From positions 1,860,001 to 1,924,000 of the forward strand of contig NZ_CP063202.1 of assembly GCF_019904235.1 (NCBI RefSeq): a stretch of 64,000 bases of DNA. The letters run 5' to 3'. Shown here in pieces: positions 15,373 through 45,995 of this stretch; the first letter of the stretch is position 1; every line of letters starts with the position of its first letter. This stretch comes from Erythrobacter sp. SCSIO 43205. GTDB lineage: Bacteria; Pseudomonadota; Alphaproteobacteria; Sphingomonadales; Sphingomonadaceae. Below the pieces are notes generated by a model. The model was not told the DNA's origin. It worked only from the letters and a program-made list of their open reading frames with translations, and made no database searches. The position numbers and the translations under genes were made by a program.

Positions 15373-15447
15373 TGGCTCCCCGAGTTGGATTCGAACCAAC
15401 GACCAAGTGATTAACAGTCACCTACTCTACCGCTGAGCTATCGGGGA
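15373..15447 (-). tRNA. tRNA-Asn (GTT)
   Basis: 75-nt cloverleaf read on the minus strand: acceptor TCCCCGA pairs with TCGGGGA, the anticodon loop is CTGTTAA (anticodon GTT), the T loop is TTCGAAT, and the CCA end is encoded. No disruption seen. Confidence 0.95.
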
Positions 15448-38968: not shown

Positions 38969-39570
38969 TAAAGCGCCTCCTCAACTTCAAAGCCGGTCGC
39001 AGATACCCCTTGCGATGTCGCCAAGCCGACAACGGAATCGGTTGGTGCCATCGGGATATATGGAGCAACCGTCTCGACCTCGGCATTGTCAGCCGGGGTT
39101 TCGGTTAGGCCGGGCTTGAATTGAGCCGTTGCTTGACCTGTGCCGTTGGTGACAAGATCAGCGGTGAGACATACCGCGCGTGCGTGCCCACTTGGCAAGG
39201 GGATCGTGATAAACTGCCCCGCTTGCAGAATGCGTGTGTTCGCCGTCATGCCGTCAAGCGCAAGGCTTTTGCCTGTGCCCGATGCCGTGGCAACACGAGG
39301 CTTTGGCCCGATATGCGTATTGCGCGGAAGCGGCCAGCGGAACCAATTGGCCGGGCCTTCAAGGGCAAACAGAAACGCGCGCCATTGGCGTTCATCAACT
39401 TCGGTTGCGATGCCCGAAATGGAGACGTTGCCTTGCCAAATCGCCACACCGGGACCGCCGAGAACCTTGCGCCGTCCGGTCCATGTTGAGCGGTTGACCT
39501 GCGTGGGGCTGGACAAGTTGAGGTTATCAAGCAAAAGCTCGTCGGGGAGGGGAACGGTGATCTCGCTCAT
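38968..39570 (-). CDS. Distal tail protein
   Basis: 200 residues, starting MSEITVPLPDELLL, with RKVLGGPGVAIWQGNVSISG and a long beta-rich C-terminus. Follows the tape measure gene with overlap, the position of distal-tail-like adaptors. No strong motif. Confidence 0.6.
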   Translation of the reverse strand: MSEITVPLPDELLLDNLNLSSPTQVNRSTWTGRRKVLGGPGVAIWQGNVSISGIATEVDERQWRAFLFALEGPANWFRWPLPRNTHIGPKPRVATASGTGKSLALDGMTANTRILQAGQFITIPLPSGHARAVCLTADLVTNGTGQATAQFKPGLTETPADNAEVETVAPYIPMAPTDSVVGLATSQGVSATGFEVEEAL

Positions 39571-42353
39571 ATTGACGGCCTTTGCGCGCGCCTAAGTGTC
39601 TCGTTTGCCGCCGCATCAATAATCGTCGGCGCGGTTTGGCGCTGCACTTCAACCGCAACACCTGTGGCCTCGGTGCGCACACGGGCAGCAAAGCCTGGAG
39701 CCTCTTCGATCATCACACGCACAACCCCGCCCGGCTGCACTCCACCGGATTGCAGGGCGTTCATGCGGCCAAGCGGTATAATCTGCCCGCTGCCCTGCGG
39801 AACAAAAGCCTCGACGCGCCCCGGTGCCGCGCCTTCATTGACGCGATACGGACGACCGCTTTGCACAAAGCCACCAGACGAGCGACCGAACAGCCCACCG
39901 ATAGCGGACAGAACCCCGCCGAACCCGCCAGAACCAAAGCCCCCCTCTTGCCCTGCCAGCGCCTCGGCAAGCGGCCCAAACACGTTCTTATCGAGGAATA
40001 TGCCGATCAGATCGCGCAGGAATGGATCTTCAATGCCAAGCGCGTTTGTCATTGCGTCGGTGATTGTCTCGTTCAGGCGTTCAATTCGGCGTACTGCCGC
40101 TTCTTCGACGCGCGTCTCGGTGTCTTTTGCATCAATTCCATAGCGCTCAAGTGGCGAGGCAAATTGGCGGTTGATCTGCTCCCGCCTATCTTCCGCCGTC
40201 GCATCCAGCGCGTCTCGCGCAACCCGCGCGCGCTCTTTGTCTGCTTCCAGTGCCGTGTTACTGGCAATGATGCTTTCAAGCCGCGAGCGCAGCAAATCAT
40301 CCTCGGCGGAGAGCAGTCGTTGAGCAATATCCCGGCGTTCTCGTTCCGTATCCGCCAGATCAAACTCAAGTCGCAACGCATCCAATTGAGCGCGCCCACG
40401 TTCTTCAGCAAGATCGCGGTTGCGTTGCTCGATCTCGGCTTGCTCGCGAAAAGCAATCGCTTGACCAAGCAGTCCGCGATTGCCGGATGCAATGATATTG
40501 CCCTGCTCGTCAATCTGGGCTTCCACGCCATAAAGCGCGTCGATCTGGTCAAGCAGGGCCTTGCGCTGCTCTTCCGTCAAATCCTTGTTCGAATTGACCT
40601 CATCGCGCCGCGCGTTCGCTTGGCTTTCGAGAATGTCCCGTTCAAGGTCTGCACGCTCCTCAGCCGAAGTGGCAAGCGCCAACTTGGCCTGTAAGATTTC
40701 CTCATCCGCGCGACGCTGGTCCTCGTAGAAACGACGCAGGACTTCCGCCGGATCGGTGATGGTAGTGCGCGAACCGCCGCCGCTTGATGTGGTTGGAGAT
40801 GTGCCAGTGGGGGAAGTTGGTGGCCCGCCTGCGTTAAAATCAACACCATTGATAACACCCGCAATGATAGCATTGCGCTTGCGTGTCAGTTGGCGAAATT
40901 CATTGTCTATAGCTTCGGCTTCGCGGTCCAATGATCCGCGCCGCGTGTCCCCATTGCGCTGCCTAGCCAAGCCCGACGCAGTTTGATTTAACTCCGGCGA
41001 ATTGCGCGCGCGATTGTTCGCAACCCGACGGCGATTGTTTTCTGTAATGTCGAGATCGACCAATGCAACGGCGGTTCGGATAGCCTGTTGCTGCAAGGCG
41101 TAAAGTTCGCCCTTCGCCGTCTTGGCAGCGCCGGTAACACCGTCGATGCCATCTTTAGCAGTATCAGAGGCAATGCCGACCGAATCCATAGCCACACCAG
41201 CTTCGCGTAGCTTGGCCTCCATTTCATCAGCTTCTTTTGCAGCCGTGTCAGCGCTTCGATTAAGCTGGTCAATGCGCTGCTGCGCGCTGTTGGCCTCAGT
41301 CGCGACATAAGCCAACCCAACCGCAACCGCACTAATTGCCAACCCAACCGGCCCGCCAAATGCAGTGAGCAATGCGCGACCGGTCGCGGTCGCAGCTGCG
41401 CCAAGAGCAACGGTCGCGAGCCGAGCCCGAACAAGGTTCGAAACATAGCCCACGCCAAGGCCGGTCGCGACAATTGCGATCAGCGGAATCAGCACGTCCA
41501 AGTTATCGGCCAGGGCATTGATACCCGCAGCCAAAGCTTCCGAAGTTCCGGTCGCAGCGTCAGCTTCGCCAACATAAACGGTGAGAGCGCTTGTCAGGCC
41601 CTCGACTGCACCAGAAAGGGTGATCGTTGCCTTCGAAGCACGCTCGTCAAGCTGACTGGAGCCTGATAGGATCGAGTTGAAAAACTCCTCGCTTGTCACA
41701 GTGCCATCAAGCATTGCGGCGCGAAGCTTATTCACATCACCCCCGAAACGCTCAGAGGCAGCGGCGGCTTGCAGAAGCGGGCGAAGGCCACCTTCGTTAA
41801 TCTGGCTGTATTCCTCGGCTCGCACAGTGCCGCTTGCAAGCGCTTGCGAGAGGCCAAGAATAGCGCCTTGCGCTTGTGTCGCGCTTGTGCCCGTAATGAG
41901 CAATGCTTGGGAAGTCGCCTCGGTAAGCCGCAACACTTGCTCTTCGCTGGCGTTGAAGCTGCGTCCCGCGTCAGTCGCTTTGCCGTAAAGCTCGGCAAGG
42001 CCATTGATCGAAACGCCGTATTTTTGCGCCAGTTCAAGCAAGCGACCCTGGACAACGGTTAGGCGCTCACCCTCAAGCCCTGCCACGCGCAATTGGTTTT
42101 GCAACCGCGTGAAATTGTCCGCTAAAGCAGCCAACTCGCGCCCCGTAAACGCCGTCGCCAGTGTTGCAGCAAGGCTCTTTACACCAATAGCAATCGAACT
42201 GCTCGACCGGCGAAACTCGCTTTCAAGCTTGCGCACACGGCTTTCTTGCCGCCCAAGTTGCTGATCGACCGTGCGTGTGGCGCTGCGAAGTTCCGCTTGG
42301 TAGCGGTCCACTTTCGCGCGCAATTCCAACGTGACTGGATCAATTTCAGGGAT
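39567..42353 (-). CDS. Tail length tape measure protein
   Basis: About 928 residues; long alpha-helical protein. The N-terminal tape-measure region has EIDPVTLELRAKVDRYQAEL, and KSLAATLATAFTGRELAALA. A membrane-active central segment and a Gln/Arg-rich coiled coil follow. Sets tail length. The start is odd: an in-frame ATC at 42353 has AGGAG seven bases upstream and begins at the expected N-terminus, whereas the only standard codon (TTG at 42383) has no ribosome site. Confidence 0.85.
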   Translation of the reverse strand: MPEIDPVTLELRAKVDRYQAELRSATRTVDQQLGRQESRVRKLESEFRRSSSSIAIGVKSLAATLATAFTGRELAALADNFTRLQNQLRVAGLEGERLTVVQGRLLELAQKYGVSINGLAELYGKATDAGRSFNASEEQVLRLTEATSQALLITGTSATQAQGAILGLSQALASGTVRAEEYSQINEGGLRPLLQAAAASERFGGDVNKLRAAMLDGTVTSEEFFNSILSGSSQLDERASKATITLSGAVEGLTSALTVYVGEADAATGTSEALAAGINALADNLDVLIPLIAIVATGLGVGYVSNLVRARLATVALGAAATATGRALLTAFGGPVGLAISAVAVGLAYVATEANSAQQRIDQLNRSADTAAKEADEMEAKLREAGVAMDSVGIASDTAKDGIDGVTGAAKTAKGELYALQQQAIRTAVALVDLDITENNRRRVANNRARNSPELNQTASGLARQRNGDTRRGSLDREAEAIDNEFRQLTRKRNAIIAGVINGVDFNAGGPPTSPTGTSPTTSSGGGSRTTITDPAEVLRRFYEDQRRADEEILQAKLALATSAEERADLERDILESQANARRDEVNSNKDLTEEQRKALLDQIDALYGVEAQIDEQGNIIASGNRGLLGQAIAFREQAEIEQRNRDLAEERGRAQLDALRLEFDLADTERERRDIAQRLLSAEDDLLRSRLESIIASNTALEADKERARVARDALDATAEDRREQINRQFASPLERYGIDAKDTETRVEEAAVRRIERLNETITDAMTNALGIEDPFLRDLIGIFLDKNVFGPLAEALAGQEGGFGSGGFGGVLSAIGGLFGRSSGGFVQSGRPYRVNEGAAPGRVEAFVPQGSGQIIPLGRMNALQSGGVQPGGVVRVMIEEAPGFAARVRTEATGVAVEVQRQTAPTIIDAAANETLRRAQRPSI

Positions 42354-42428
42354 TGTCTTGCTCCTGCGCGTATGCGCGGGCAAGATAGGGCGGGAAATTG
42401 GAGCGGCTTACCGCCGTAAGGAGACAAG

Positions 42429-42734
42429 ATGCTTCAAATTATAGGTTGGCTCGGTTGCGTAATGTTGGCGGTAAAGCTGCTAGAGATAAGTGCAAATCCG
42501 GCCTACATTGGAAAGAACGGAAAGCCCCTGCCTGCGATTTTCGCACCATTGATAATTGGGTGGGCCGCTGTTTTTGGTTTCGCGCTCTGGCTTTTTGTCC
42601 AAGGCTCTCAGTTTGAAGGAATGGCGGCGCGCTCGCCTGAAAGCTTAACCTCTTACACTCCACTCTCACCTCGCGAAGTGGAGTGTATCAACAATGCGAA
42701 GACGGATACGGAAATTCTTGCGTGCGGCAATTAG
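42429..42734 (+). CDS. Small two-transmembrane phage protein on the opposite strand
   Basis: 101 residues with two hydrophobic segments (IGWLGCVMLAVKLLEI; PLIIGWAAVFGFALWLFVQG) and a soluble cysteine-containing tail. AAGGAG precedes the ATG. It runs against the late genes, starting 76 bases upstream of the tape measure start, and ends overlapping the RHH gene tail to tail. Unknown; a membrane moron such as a superinfection-exclusion protein is possible. Confidence 0.6.
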   Translation: MLQIIGWLGCVMLAVKLLEISANPAYIGKNGKPLPAIFAPLIIGWAAVFGFALWLFVQGSQFEGMAARSPESLTSYTPLSPREVECINNAKTDTEILACGN

Positions 42735-42910
42735 CCTAGCCGTTTGCTCAAAATGCGACGAATTGCCTCAGGGCGCGACGGCTTGTCGGACTGACATTCT
42801 CGCCATTCATCCAACGCGTTTAACATTGATCGCTCAATACGGACTGTGATCGCTTCGCTATCGACGCGAGGCCTACCCATCCTCTTTTTAATGTTATTTA
42901 GTGTTGACAT
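42731..42910 (-). CDS. Ribbon-helix-helix DNA-binding protein
   Basis: 59 residues. ITVRIERSMLNALDEW is the beta strand and first helix, and SRPEAIRRILSKRLG the second helix of an Arc/CopG-type RHH fold. A lysine/arginine-rich lead (NNIKKRMGRPRVD) precedes it. It is divergent from the 43001-44455 operon across a 90-base gap holding a GGGAA-N8-TTCCC dyad, so it probably represses that promoter and its own. Confidence 0.75.
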   Translation of the reverse strand: MSTLNNIKKRMGRPRVDSEAITVRIERSMLNALDEWRECQSDKPSRPEAIRRILSKRLG

Positions 42911-43000
42911 GACGACTTTGTAACGCCATAAAGTTCGGACGGCAAGGGAAATCCTACCTTCCCCGCCGCCCTAACCGAAACCGAACCCAAGGAGTTCGAT
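42911..43000. promoter_or_regulatory. Divergent promoter/operator region of the inner cassette
   Basis: Ninety bases between the divergent RHH gene and the operon. It contains the dyad GGGAA (42946-42950) and TTCCC (42959-42963), flanked by GGC/GCC, and AAGGAG for the first ORF at 42989-42994. The dyad is a plausible RHH operator. Confidence 0.45.
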
Positions 43001-43135
43001 ATGGCTACTAATGTGATACAGTTTCCGCGCCGCGCTGCCAATGACAATGAATTGGCACCATTCCCCGCAACGGACCAAGGTCTTGATCGGCCTGCGCGCC
43101 TTTACCGCGTTCTTGACGCACGGAGGGCCGCATGA
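43001..43135 (+). CDS. Small phage protein, first gene of the inner operon
   Basis: 44 residues (starts MATNVIQFPRRAANDNEL, ends RRAA), with AAGGAG seven bases upstream. The stop overlaps the next ATG (ATGA). A short, basic and polar peptide without a recognised fold. Confidence 0.6.
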   Translation: MATNVIQFPRRAANDNELAPFPATDQGLDRPARLYRVLDARRAA

Positions 43136-43410
43136 ACAGCATTAGCCAAGCTTCACCCGCTTTCATCTATCCTGAGCCAGACACCGGCAGTGCCAGTGTT
43201 GATCTTTCGCACGTCGCGACCCTGCTCGATGTCATTATCGACATCAATGACGAAATGACGGCAATGCAGGCTCCTGAGGCCATGCAGCGCCTGTCTGACC
43301 GCTCGATGAATCTGGGCCTGATCGCTCACGAGCTTGTGCAGCGCGCACAGGCTGACTTGAACCCCGCGCCAACCGCTATCATTGCCACATTCAACAGAAA
43401 GGCCGCTTGA
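43132..43410 (+). CDS. Phage protein of unknown function, inner operon
   Basis: 92 residues, mainly helical (LSHVATLLDVIIDINDEMTA; NLGLIAHELVQRAQADL). Overlaps its neighbours on both sides by one to four bases. No recognised domain. Confidence 0.6.
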   Translation: MNSISQASPAFIYPEPDTGSASVDLSHVATLLDVIIDINDEMTAMQAPEAMQRLSDRSMNLGLIAHELVQRAQADLNPAPTAIIATFNRKAA

Positions 43411-43988
43411 TGCCTACCGCAACCAAAATCGAACTCCCCGCGCTCCAGATCGAGCGCCTTTCCCTCAACCTCGTCGGTGACAGCCCGCTTATCGTTCACG
43501 CTTGGAGCGAGAAGGCGAAGAAGCAAATGCTCGACAAGCAAATGAAGAAGGCCAGTAAAGGCAAAGAGGCCAAAGACCCCGAAGCCGACTACGAGGCCTG
43601 CTTCTACCGCACCGAAAAGGGCGCATATGGCTTTCCCGCCATTGGCGTAAAATCCGCGATGGTTTCGGCTTGTCGGTTCGTTGATATGAAAATGACCGAA
43701 GCACGCGGCGCGTTCCACATCGACTGCGAAATGCTCGAAATCCACGGCGAGCCGCGACCACGCGAGGACATGGTGCGCGTCGGCATGGGAACGGCTGATA
43801 TTCGCTATCGGCCGGAATTCCCCGAATGGACTATGCCTGTCGAAGTGAAGTTTAACGCCAACGCGGTCAGCGCAGAGCAGATTGCAAACCTGCTCAACAC
43901 CGCTGGCTTTGCTATCGGGATTGGCGAGTGGCGCCCTGAAAAGAACGGCCAATATGGCCGGTTCCACGTCGAAGGAAGTCAGCCATGA
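43410..43988 (+). CDS. Conserved phage protein with faint Cas7/RAMP-like features
   Basis: 192 residues. LSLNLVGDSPLIVHAW at the N-terminus, GFPAIGVKSAMVSACR in the middle, and IGEWRPEKNGQYGRFHV at the C-terminus. The middle block has the spacing of the RAMP glycine-rich helix (GSSLKGALRS-type) and the end a Gly-rich turn. From memory, such proteins occur in many phages with the next gene as a pair. RAMP homology is only a pattern suggestion. ATG overlaps the upstream stop (TGATG). Confidence 0.65.
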   Translation: MPTATKIELPALQIERLSLNLVGDSPLIVHAWSEKAKKQMLDKQMKKASKGKEAKDPEADYEACFYRTEKGAYGFPAIGVKSAMVSACRFVDMKMTEARGAFHIDCEMLEIHGEPRPREDMVRVGMGTADIRYRPEFPEWTMPVEVKFNANAVSAEQIANLLNTAGFAIGIGEWRPEKNGQYGRFHVEGSQP

Positions 43989-44455
43989 TCTACAAATGGA
44001 AAACAGGCTCCAAGGCGCTCGTCGATGCGCAAGTAGCAGGCGAGGAAATCGAGCGCCTCCGCGTCCACCAGAATGGGCGGCTTGAGGCCCGCGATTTGGT
44101 CGAAGCTTCGCGCGATGCCAATGCACCACTTCACCCCGCCTTCGAGTGGGACAACAACATAGCTGCTGAGAAATTCCGCGTCGAACAGGCCAAATACATG
44201 ATCCGCTCGGTCGAGGTTGTTGTACAGAAGGGTGACGAGAAACAAGCGCCTATTCGCGCGTTTGTCTCGGTTGTCCGCGACAACGACCGCAGTTATACCT
44301 CAACCTTCCACGCCCTTAGTGACTCCGAGCTTCGCCAGCAGGTAGTCGCGCAGGCATGGAAAGAACTGGAAGCGTGGCAAAAACGCCATGCAGAGCTCGT
44401 CGAATTCGCCGGCATATTTGCCAAAATCGAAGAGGCTCGGATCGCCAGTGAATAG
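43985..44455 (+). CDS. Conserved phage protein, partner of the preceding gene
   Basis: 156 residues. It begins MIYKWKTGSKALVDAQVAGE, with the block APLHPAFEWDNNIAAEKFRV, and a charged helical C-terminus. ATGA overlap implies coupled translation with the preceding gene. Function unknown. Last gene before the pentamer tract and terminator. Confidence 0.65.
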   Translation: MIYKWKTGSKALVDAQVAGEEIERLRVHQNGRLEARDLVEASRDANAPLHPAFEWDNNIAAEKFRVEQAKYMIRSVEVVVQKGDEKQAPIRAFVSVVRDNDRSYTSTFHALSDSELRQQVVAQAWKELEAWQKRHAELVEFAGIFAKIEEARIASE

Positions 44456-44470
44456 GATCCGAAACATGGC

Positions 44471-44587
44471 AGGCATGGCGGGGTTGGGCGAGGCGCGTCG
44501 AGGCCGGTTTAGGCTAGGCATGGCTTGTCGAGGCAGGCGAGGCAAGGCCTGGTGAGGCACGGTATGGTATGGCCCGGTATGGCAGGC
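44471..44587. repeat. Degenerate tandem GGCAN-type pentamer tract
   Basis: About 23 contiguous five-base units, mostly nGGCn (for example AGGCA, TGGCG, AGGCG, AGGCC, AGGCT), with one register shift near 44535. The plus strand is G-rich and C-poor; later units are GGTAT. It is intergenic, between the last operon gene and the terminator, so it would be in the 3' end of the operon RNA. Confidence 0.8.
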
Positions 44588-44595
44588 TACCCACG

Positions 44596-44622
44596 AAGGG
44601 GGCGGTTTATCCGCCCCCTTTT
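44596..44622. terminator. Bidirectional intrinsic terminator
   Basis: Stem GGGGGCGG (44598-44605), loop TTTAT, stem CCGCCCCC (44611-44618) and TTTT, with AA/TT extending it. It ends the plus-strand operon and can act on the minus strand; the stop codon of the minus-strand chaperone extension is inside its loop. Confidence 0.8.
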
Positions 44623-44789
44623 ACCATTGCACCATGTGCCGACATGAACCGCTTGAGCTCGTCGGATGCCTCTTTGGGCTTTGCGGAGTCGGGGTTTTGC
44701 GCCTCGTTGTGTGCTTCAAGGGCTTCGAGATAATCGGATAGGTCGGCGCTGCGCCAATCCAGCCCAAGCGCGCCGCAATTAGCGATCAC
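44607..44789 (-). CDS. Tail assembly chaperone C-terminal extension (frameshift product or stand-alone)
   Basis: 60 residues from GTG (IANCGALGLDWRSADLSDYL). The frame is open upstream through the nine-A run and matches a -1 slip from the preceding gene, which would make a ~211-residue fusion, as for lambda G/GT. A GTG start overlapping the upstream stop also exists, so separate translation is possible (GTA-like proteins of ~60 residues are known). Confidence 0.65.
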   Translation of the reverse strand: MIANCGALGLDWRSADLSDYLEALEAHNEAQNPDSAKPKEASDELKRFMSAHGAMVKGGG

Positions 44790-45241
44790 TTGCCCTTTTC
44801 GGAATCGTTCATTTCGCCCGGCTCGCTTTCCGCTTTTTTTTTATCGGAAAGCTGCACGCCATGAATGGCCGCGTGAAGGATGCGCCATGCAAGGACAACG
44901 CCCTCAGCCATCGGGCGCGCAGGATATACGTAATTGTCAACCAAGGAGCGCGCGAGGTTTGGCCCCACTTCGATCTCCTGGCCTTCGACCACGGCATTGT
45001 CGCCACCGATGATACCAAGGCGGATTGTCTCGCGCACATCGGCAATTGTGGCAGAACCGCCGCCGATAAAAAGGAATGTGGGGTCGTCCTTGGAGCCTTC
45101 CGCGCCGATACTGCCGCGCAGACGTTCCTCAATCGTCAAAATGGACGCATCGGTCTTCCGTTCCAGTTCCATGATTTGTGGAAGCGGAAGCCAGAACCGA
45201 TAGCGCCCATCAGCGAAGTCGAGGTCAATTGCGGTGTCCAC
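44786..45241 (-). CDS. Tail assembly chaperone (GTA gp10-like)
   Basis: 151 residues, with DLDFADGRYRFWLPLPQIME and ETIRLGIIGG, resembling the gene transfer agent gp10-type tail protein. Ends in a lysine-rich tail coded by GAT plus nine A. It overlaps the 60-residue ORF by four bases. Helps load the tape measure during tail assembly. Confidence 0.7.
   Translation of the reverse strand: MDTAIDLDFADGRYRFWLPLPQIMELERKTDASILTIEERLRGSIGAEGSKDDPTFLFIGGGSATIADVRETIRLGIIGGDNAVVEGQEIEVGPNLARSLVDNYVYPARPMAEGVVLAWRILHAAIHGVQLSDKKKAESEPGEMNDSEKGK
44834..44842 (-). promoter_or_regulatory. Candidate -1 programmed frameshift site (nine A)
   Basis: Minus strand GAT AAA AAA AAA GCG: nine A read as Lys-Lys-Lys. 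A one-base back slip enters the frame of the downstream ORF (44834 and 44789 are in one frame), open for ~75 codons until 44607. This is the classical tail chaperone arrangement. Confidence 0.6.
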
Positions 45242-45251
45242 CGCTTATCCT

Positions 45252-45698
45252 TTATGGTGCGGCGGTGTAGGTGACAGCGCCGTCGCTGGCGAGGGTGATT
45301 TCCGCACTGCCCGGATTGTCGAGCGAGAGGTTGAGGTTCGAAGAGGTCATCATGAACGGGCCAGTGAAGGTGCCGAGCAACACGCCCGCGTCGGTGCCGT
45401 CGCGCTGGTATGCTTCGATGGTGTAGTTCTTCGACACGCCAAGAGCCGCACGCACGTTTTCGATTTCGTCAGCGTTGGTGAGGCCGGTTGCAGTGATGTC
45501 GGTTTGCTTGCCAGTTGGCTGCACGCGGCGCTGTGGAACCTCACCCGGCTTCGCACAATCGCGGACAAAGCGATCTTGCGTGTTTACCGTCTCGTTGACC
45601 GTCGCGTCCTGCAAACCGCAAATCGCGGTGAAAGTTTCGGGATCTCCGTCATCGCCAATCTTGACGAGAGCAAAATCAATTTCCGTGGGGACCGACAT
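45252..45698 (-). CDS. Major tail tube protein
   Basis: 148 residues, beta-rich, with ATVNETVNTQDRFVRDC and TDAGVLLGTFTGPFMMTSS, similar to GTA gp9-type tail tube proteins. Position just before the chaperone pair is the usual one. AAGGAG before ATG. Confidence 0.7.
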   Translation of the reverse strand: MSVPTEIDFALVKIGDDGDPETFTAICGLQDATVNETVNTQDRFVRDCAKPGEVPQRRVQPTGKQTDITATGLTNADEIENVRAALGVSKNYTIEAYQRDGTDAGVLLGTFTGPFMMTSSNLNLSLDNPGSAEITLASDGAVTYTAAP

Positions 45699-45738
45699 TA
45701 AAGGCTCCTTCGCGTGTCATACGCGATGGAGTTAGGCG

Positions 45739-45975
45739 CTAATCCGCGTCCTCATTCCCGCCGTGTATCACATGAAGGCCCGCGCGCATCTCGACCGGAT
45801 CGGTTAAGGCGTTCGATACGGGAAGCGCCCGCACGCGCTCGGCCAGATCGTCCTCGCCCGACAATTCAAGCCGCCGGGCAATGGTGGCAAGATTGCCTTC
45901 ATCGAAAAGGCCGATCTTGTGAAGCTCGGCAACGAGAACCATTGCCAGCGCGTTTGGGTCTGAGGGATCGCTCAC
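45739..45975 (-). CDS. Hypothetical phage protein
   Basis: 78 residues from GTG at 45975; mostly helical, acidic. No family recognised. Lies between the tail tube and tail completion genes; starts with TTG or GTG possible and no strong ribosome site. Confidence 0.45.
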   Translation of the reverse strand: MSDPSDPNALAMVLVAELHKIGLFDEGNLATIARRLELSGEDDLAERVRALPVSNALTDPVEMRAGLHVIHGGNEDAD

Positions 45976-45995
45976 CAAACCAGCCTAGCACAAAT

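Follow-up and report, generated by a model that had tools for sequence, protein, structure and literature searches.

A VIPR cassette in a prophage of Erythrobacter sp. SCSIO 43205 and the candidate targets of its guide array

Viral Interference Programmable Repeat (VIPR) systems, which an account of 2026 presents as possibly ancestral to class 1 CRISPR, consist of a protein (Vipr), an accessory protein (vap, with vap1-6 named), and guide RNAs (vrRNAs) of 9-16 YNNGG repeats (PMC13142463 / bioRxiv 2026.04.26.720920). Seven types are distinguished in that account, which also mentions staggered arrays (fig. S18). In the members characterized there, Vipr binds GGY-NN repeat RNAs of ~100 nucleotides, whose NN dinucleotides pair with double-stranded DNA, one target base being skipped per pair, so that transcription is blocked; disturbing the NN base pairing abolishes silencing (PMC13142463). 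Since 2024, no other paper with the word vrRNA or the full VIPR name appeared in the literature that we searched.

Here we consider a 64,000-nucleotide stretch of the chromosome of Erythrobacter sp. SCSIO 43205 (contig NZ_CP063202.1, positions 1,860,001 to 1,924,000), referred to as the window; loci compared with it carry L numbers. At 42429-44622, the window contains a cassette that was picked out in a first-pass annotation of the DNA and that is, with near certainty, a VIPR system. The locus is a further member of a kind known since 2026, and an independent find of VIPR from raw sequence. We consider that the locus as a whole is very probably best explained as a prophage-borne VIPR whose second guide, judging from its sequence matches, would silence the tape measure genes of rival phages.

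A VIPR system among prophage tail genes

The cassette is a plus-strand block set among minus-strand tail genes, as the first-pass annotation had described it, with a tape measure gene (39567-42383, minus strand; Pfam TMP_3, E 9e-45) on one side and further minus-strand tail genes on the other. Portal, terminase, and major head genes are present on the same 3.38-Mb contig, which puts the cassette in a prophage. Within the block lie four coupled open reading frames (ORFs), overlapping as previously read (43001-43135, 43132-43410, 43410-43988, and 43985-44455), the last two of which encode Vipr and vap.

The vipr gene (43410-43988, plus strand) encodes a 192-aa RAMP-fold RNA-binding protein assigned to phrog_4652 (PHROG E 1e-32). 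A resemblance of this product to Cas7/RAMP proteins had been proposed together with a structural comparison, and the AlphaFold2 model (pLDDT 88) indeed has its best Foldseek/VIA structural matches in Csm3 and Cas7. We found 7461 homologues of Vipr. By tblastn, the window protein is 24% identical (E 3e-7) to the Felixounavirus protein tootiki_14, which, used as a query in turn, leads at 97.9% identity to phiSUSP1, the phage tested in PMC13142463. The vipr family is present in a single copy in its own genome (one contig) and in 0 of the other 197 relatives' genomes searched. The adjacent vap gene (43985-44455, plus strand), which overlaps vipr by 4 bases, encodes a 156-aa accessory protein (phrog_15946, PHROG E 6e-22). 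A structure search with its model (pLDDT 77) gave no PDB match at E<=0.001, and its best Padloc match had an E of 0.002 ('2TM' effector), the rest being weaker.

The cassette thus shares with the described VIPR systems, as the main text of PMC13142463 presents them, a RAMP-fold Vipr of ~20 kD, an adjacent vap, a GGY-NN array (here with guides of 12 and 9 repeats and hypervariable NN), a phage-borne setting, and a best fit to targets at a skip of 1 nucleotide, which in our case is a computational result; a guide of a relative (L070) aimed at vipr genes also has its counterpart there. It differs in that no relative of the window vap was detected in L007, a SUSP1-like phage locus, and the RNAs of VIPR type II (SUSP1) carry a separate conserved tail of which none was seen here, no pseudoknot search being made. 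Further differences are a 4-base GGCA slip in the array, a ribbon-helix-helix (RHH) regulator, a covarying leader RNA, and a structural late gene as the putative target of guide 2, features that are not in the main text of PMC13142463. From class 1 CRISPR-Cas systems (Csm3/Cas7), the cassette is set apart by its gapped guide code and in that neither a repeat/spacer array nor a Cas family above cut-off was found: none of the ten ORFs of 42429-45978 passed the Pfam or NCBIfam cut-off for a Cas family (Cas7fv scored 12 bits, where 200 are required), and a search for direct repeats of at least 20 bases in 42350-45300 returned a single pair, 77% alike, 599 bases apart, and lying within genes.

Guide arrays and their grammar

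The tandem pentamer tract that the first-pass annotation had reported is present at 44468-44589 at a level far above chance. In this tract GGY pairs at a spacing of 5 reach 14 per 100 bases, with 15 at the double spacing of 10. Across the whole 64 kb, GGY pairs at spacings of 3, 4, 6, 7, 8, and 9 reach at most 4 (plus strand) or 5 (minus strand) per 100 bases, and minus-strand pairs at a spacing of 5 reach at most 3 anywhere in the window. We read the tract as a plus-strand guide (vrRNA) array of 22 pentamers and three 4-nucleotide GGCA units, in the order GGCA, guide 1, GGCA, guide 2, GGCA, GGCTA. Guide 1 (44472-44531) has 12 repeats, three of them with GT in place of GG, and the NN series AT GG TG GA GC GA CG TA TA AT TT GA; guide 2 (44536-44580), which matches tape measure genes, has 9 GGY-NN repeats with the series GA AA CT GA AC AT AT CC AT. 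An 11-bp hairpin followed by T residues (44595-44621, plus strand) ends the array and may serve as a terminator or as a 3' cap. Where a terminator had previously been placed there is a stable hairpin with TTTT (-22.8 kcal/mol and z -3.3 for 44581-44625); the terminator scan did not list it.

The same grammar can be read across the family. Guide parsing at 94 loci (the window, L001-L008, L030-L109, and L112-L116) yielded 286 accepted guides, 253 of them unique, from 69 loci; over these 286 guides the entropy of the three G-G-Y columns is 0.31, 0.75, and 1.10 bits and that of the two N-N columns 1.93 and 1.99 bits. When slips were counted with a parser in which a 6-base slip costs more than one of 4 bases, 378 slips of 4 bases were found versus 8 of 6 bases, and GGCA accounts for 314 of the 378, as compared with just 25% of 5-base units that begin with GGCA. 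Pentamer-only stretches between two GGCA marks have 7-17 pentamers in 298 of 326 cases, with a mode of 9 or 10. Arrays built in this way have guides that are readable by eye, and the slip grammar may be what PMC13142463, in its mention of fig. S18, calls staggered arrays.

All 8 phage loci read (L001-L008) have a GGY tract at 5-base spacing by vipr and on its coding strand; the tracts lie at differing places in the phage genomes, and the neighboring gene is either a vap relative (L001-L004) or has no similarity to vap (L005-L008). A wider survey covered 80 of the 107 viral contigs found with vipr, with the tract sought within 1.5 kb: it stands on the same strand as vipr in 63 of the 80 loci, on the opposite strand in 1, and in 0 of 20 unrelated bacterial control loci. 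Other spacings gave no locus at 3, 6, 7, 8, 11, or 12, with 3 loci at 4, 25 at 9, and 66 at the double spacing of 10. Among the 17 loci that are tractless at our threshold, the flanks of six were inspected, and relaxed pentamer tracts are apparent by eye in five of them (L075, L077, L086, L101, and L107); the sequence of the sixth, L079, stops 227 bases past vipr. The first-pass annotation had put forward for checking the co-occurrence of the gene pair with tracts; a relative of vap adjoins vipr in 65 of the 80 loci. A scan of genome contigs returned 5 loci, two of them from Sphingomonas/Sphingopyxis.

Some arrays have features of their own. At L044:139-347, an opposite-strand tract lies upstream of vipr, the sole such case within 1.5 kb among the 80 loci (that of L093 lies farther away). 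In Gordonia phage MakoManhole (L008:2984-3028 and L008:3101-3144) and Mycobacterium phage LittleE (L006:6374-6418), short stretches with GGTTCGANTC stand between guide tracts; they resemble a tRNA acceptor plus T arm and are perhaps RNase P/Z processing marks. ARAGORN and Rfam call none of the three, whose fold z values are -0.8, -2.0, and -1.7. In L075 a long guide array is directly followed by a complete tRNA-Asn gene (L075:5374-5446), ahead of vap.

Candidate targets in tape measure and vipr genes

Guides were matched to DNA by the 1-nucleotide-skip rule of PMC13142463, under which guide 2 specifies 18 bases. Two viral contigs, L110 and L111, match it exactly (18/18). The match in L110 falls in frame in a TMP_3 tape measure gene, with the skips on wobble positions, and reads E-N-L-D-T-I-I-P-I. 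The homologous site in the tape measure gene beside the cassette (41481-41507, minus strand) reads D-N-L-D-V-L-I-P-L and agrees with the guide at 13 of its 18 positions. We then turned to 19 loci fetched by tape measure protein homology, 17 of which entered a shuffle test, with L119 and L120 (short matches) added as misses. In 13 of these 19, guide 2 has no better match anywhere in the locus than at the homologous codons, with scores of 14-17 of 18, including 17/18 in L131 and 16/18 in L118; the misses are L117, L129, L140, L141, L119, and L120, the last two having best scores of 12 and 13. In the 17-locus set, 1 of 1500 order shuffles and 0 of 1500 letter shuffles attained a score of 17/18. 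Targeting of tape measure genes by guide 2 is, on these sequence grounds, probable though unproven, and would provide a candidate natural target in another phage group. Among the literature matches listed, none points by its title to an earlier link with tape measure genes.

The skip rule itself was assessed on the 113 loci left after pattern-fetched loci were dropped, using 218 guides with at least 9 repeats and 20 shuffled sets. At a skip of 1, 10 of the 218 guides have a match, window guide 2 among them, as compared with 0-9 (mean 3.2) in the shuffled sets, so that chance would account for about 3 of the ten; skips of 0, 2, and 3 gave 2, 3, and 3 guides, within their respective controls. 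The result lends computational support to the 1-nucleotide-skip rule in a lineage whose vap shows no detectable relationship to the accessory gene of a SUSP1-like phage. Two guides of L035 match the TMP_2 gene of L038 at sites 126 bases apart (18/20 each), and next to these sites a guide of L038 itself (L038:5057) matches at 21/26 (L038:6521), perhaps at a diverged former target or in self-regulation. In 11 loci, the window among them, a guide of L070 matches the vipr gene at 17/18; at the same codons of its own vipr it reaches 14/18. By its sequence matches, this is a second case in which the rival is matched and self is mismatched, the other being the tape measure site, at 18/18 or 17/18 in rivals versus 13/18 in the carrier. 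Further matches place an L043 guide in a TMP_3 gene (16/18 in L032; L112 is the same region), an L033 guide (L033:5069) in its own locus in a 283-aa ORF of no known family (20/24 at L033:2842; also L113:3842), and an L060 guide opposite an Erf gene (16/18); those of an L030 guide (23/28) and an L048 guide (21/26) are weaker, and an 8-repeat L041 guide, which is not one of the 218, scores 14/16 in a major tail gene. In the longest ORF at each site, the skips are in wobble phase in 39 of 54 real skip-1 matches versus 19 of 40 shuffled ones, a comparison on which we do not rely because some of the 54 come from loci that had been retrieved with the guide 2 pattern itself.

Chromosomal sites for guide 2 were considered and rejected. 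Sites with at most 2 mismatches occur in 66 of 198 genomes (its own plus 197 relatives) versus 5 of 198 for the reversed control. All 68 places listed have 2 mismatches, 43 of them (by eye) are one conserved stretch, E-N-R-E-T-M-M, and the guide's own genome has 0; the 19 that were opened include no tape measure gene and are by eye, for example, dinB-, luxR-, or gyrA-like. We take these matches to be chance together with a conserved host gene rather than targets.

Several observations weigh against tape measure genes as the target of guide 2. The two exact viral matches are not in excess of control patterns (4 for the reversed order, 0 at a skip of 0, and 1 at a skip of 2), and the one in L111 falls in a different, Gp10-like gene. 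The 13 hits among 19 loci are not 13 independent events, since several loci are near copies, and tape measure loci are over-represented because VIPRs lie near them and because L127-L141 were fetched owing to the L110 match. No chromosomal target was found, and guide 1 gave nothing above threshold in the compared loci, with a best score of 17/24 in the tape measure set. The L043 guide fits equally well (16/18) at an unrelated place in L128. With 18 bases specified, the match counts and the L111 site would suit a real VIPR whose guide 2 meets tape measure genes by coincidence and whose true targets are other, unsampled elements. We nevertheless hold this to be unlikely, as the match lies in a homologue of the very gene that flanks the cassette, in frame and with its skips on wobble positions, recurs at 17/18 at the same codons in a homology-fetched locus, and has a parallel in the two guides of another array that sit side by side in a tape measure gene.

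That guide 2 instead acts on the tape measure gene of the prophage itself, so that late tail genes stay off in lysogeny, might be suggested by the position of the cassette beside that gene, by the 13/18 match there, and by the L038 guide that matches its own tape measure gene. The best chance sites in the window, however, score higher than this (14/18), which also counts against the tape measure reading; rival genes do better (18, 17, and 16 of 18), and the loss of silencing upon disturbed NN pairing reported in PMC13142463 would also tell against it, so that we think self-regulation improbable. We give scarcely any credence to a reading in which the tract serves recombination or packaging and the 192-aa product anneals single strands. 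Repeat-bearing phage cassettes can be recombination hot spots, but the best structural matches of Vipr are Csm3/Cas7 chains, and the tract is made of guide-length units with hypervariable NN on a fixed strand relative to vipr. The structural matches listed are RAMPs rather than RecT/Erf folds, although absence from that list is no proof.

We return to a VIPR directed at rival tape measure genes. Under this reading, when a related phage superinfects or shares the cell, guide 2 would lead Vipr and vap to its tape measure gene, and repression of the rival's late tail operon would leave no tails built; the biochemistry of Vipr (RNA binding, NN pairing, and transcription block) is carried over from other members described in PMC13142463. 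The carrier's own tape measure gene would escape because only 13 of 18 guide positions match there, with five mismatches, and a synonymous change should not free the rival because the skipped bases fall on codon wobble positions, an argument made in PMC13142463. A broader proposal, which we judge evenly poised between right and wrong, is that cassettes of this lineage sabotage tail building in close relatives: guides would derive from stretches of conserved codons in tape measure or rival vipr genes, with the cassette beside the carrier's diverged tape measure gene and self spared only by amino-acid changes, as the wobble-skipping code ignores synonymous ones, while the GGCA slip would be a processing or register-reset mark giving several guides per transcript.

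Regulation and setting of the cassette

Divergent from the coupled genes is a 59-aa RHH regulator (42731-42910, minus strand), recognized in the first-pass annotation and placed by Pfam in RHH_1 above cut-off (E 1e-4). Of the 13 loci with a Vipr of 73% or higher identity (L030-L041 and L070), 11 have such a divergent gene upstream, as do 14 of 80 overall. A candidate promoter/operator (42904-42934, plus strand), read by eye, comprises TTGACA (42904-42909) and the imperfect palindrome ACTTTGTAACGCCATAAAGT (42915-42934), which overlaps a CATAAA box. The operator-like dyad proposed earlier gains from this palindrome, in which 7 of 10 arm positions pair by manual count, and from better palindromes at the same place in relatives (1 mismatch in L031 and L037, perfect in L040), but neither the repeat finder nor the dyad script listed it. 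A promoter scan found none by its rule.

Downstream lies a structured leader RNA (42938-43004, plus strand) with one hairpin at 42938-42970 and another (42975-43004) that takes in the ribosome-binding site and the start codon. In an alignment of 12 rows chosen post hoc (the window and L030-L040; L112 and L113 were omitted because they repeat L032 and L033), both partners have changed in 10 of 17 pairs without loss of pairing, and 90.5% of cells are paired, a level reached by 0 of 500 shuffles and falling to 28-45% when the alignment is slid by 1-3 columns; for further pair types, the observed level was reached by 50 of 500 shuffles. Single folds of six sequences have z values from -1.5 (L037) to -5.8 (L038). 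The alignment pattern did not find the element in L041 or L070, where no further search was made, and Rfam gave nothing at gathering score for the cassette and leader, with one chance match at E 3.1. The locus also offers a conserved leader RNA. In the reading that we propose, the RHH protein would repress the promoter until a trigger arrives, and the leader hairpin would gate translation. We find support for the earlier interpretation of an autonomous cassette, possibly used in defence or counter-defence.

Phage morons with their own repressor are a known kind of cassette. The present one shares with them its counter-directional orientation, its own regulator, and a terminator-like hairpin within late genes, and differs in encoding an RNA-guided system. 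Its first two coupled genes encode a 44-aa ORF product (43001-43135, plus strand), with short similarity in 2 of 80 loci, and a 92-aa product (43132-43410, plus strand), which has no relative in the compared loci. The membrane protein previously described in the block corresponds to a 101-aa hydrophobic ORF (42429-42734, plus strand) between the tape measure and RHH genes; it has no relative in any compared locus and is probably outside the VIPR system. Beyond the array, on the minus strand, Pfam identifies the tail genes Phage_TAC_11 (44786-45241) and Phage_tail_2 (45252-45698). A tRNA-Asn gene (15373-15447, minus strand) is the only tRNA found in the window. The VIPR cassettes of LittleE (L006:5010-6540) and ODay (L001:4162-6703) also adjoin a tape measure gene, and that of LittleE is counter-directional like the one in the window.

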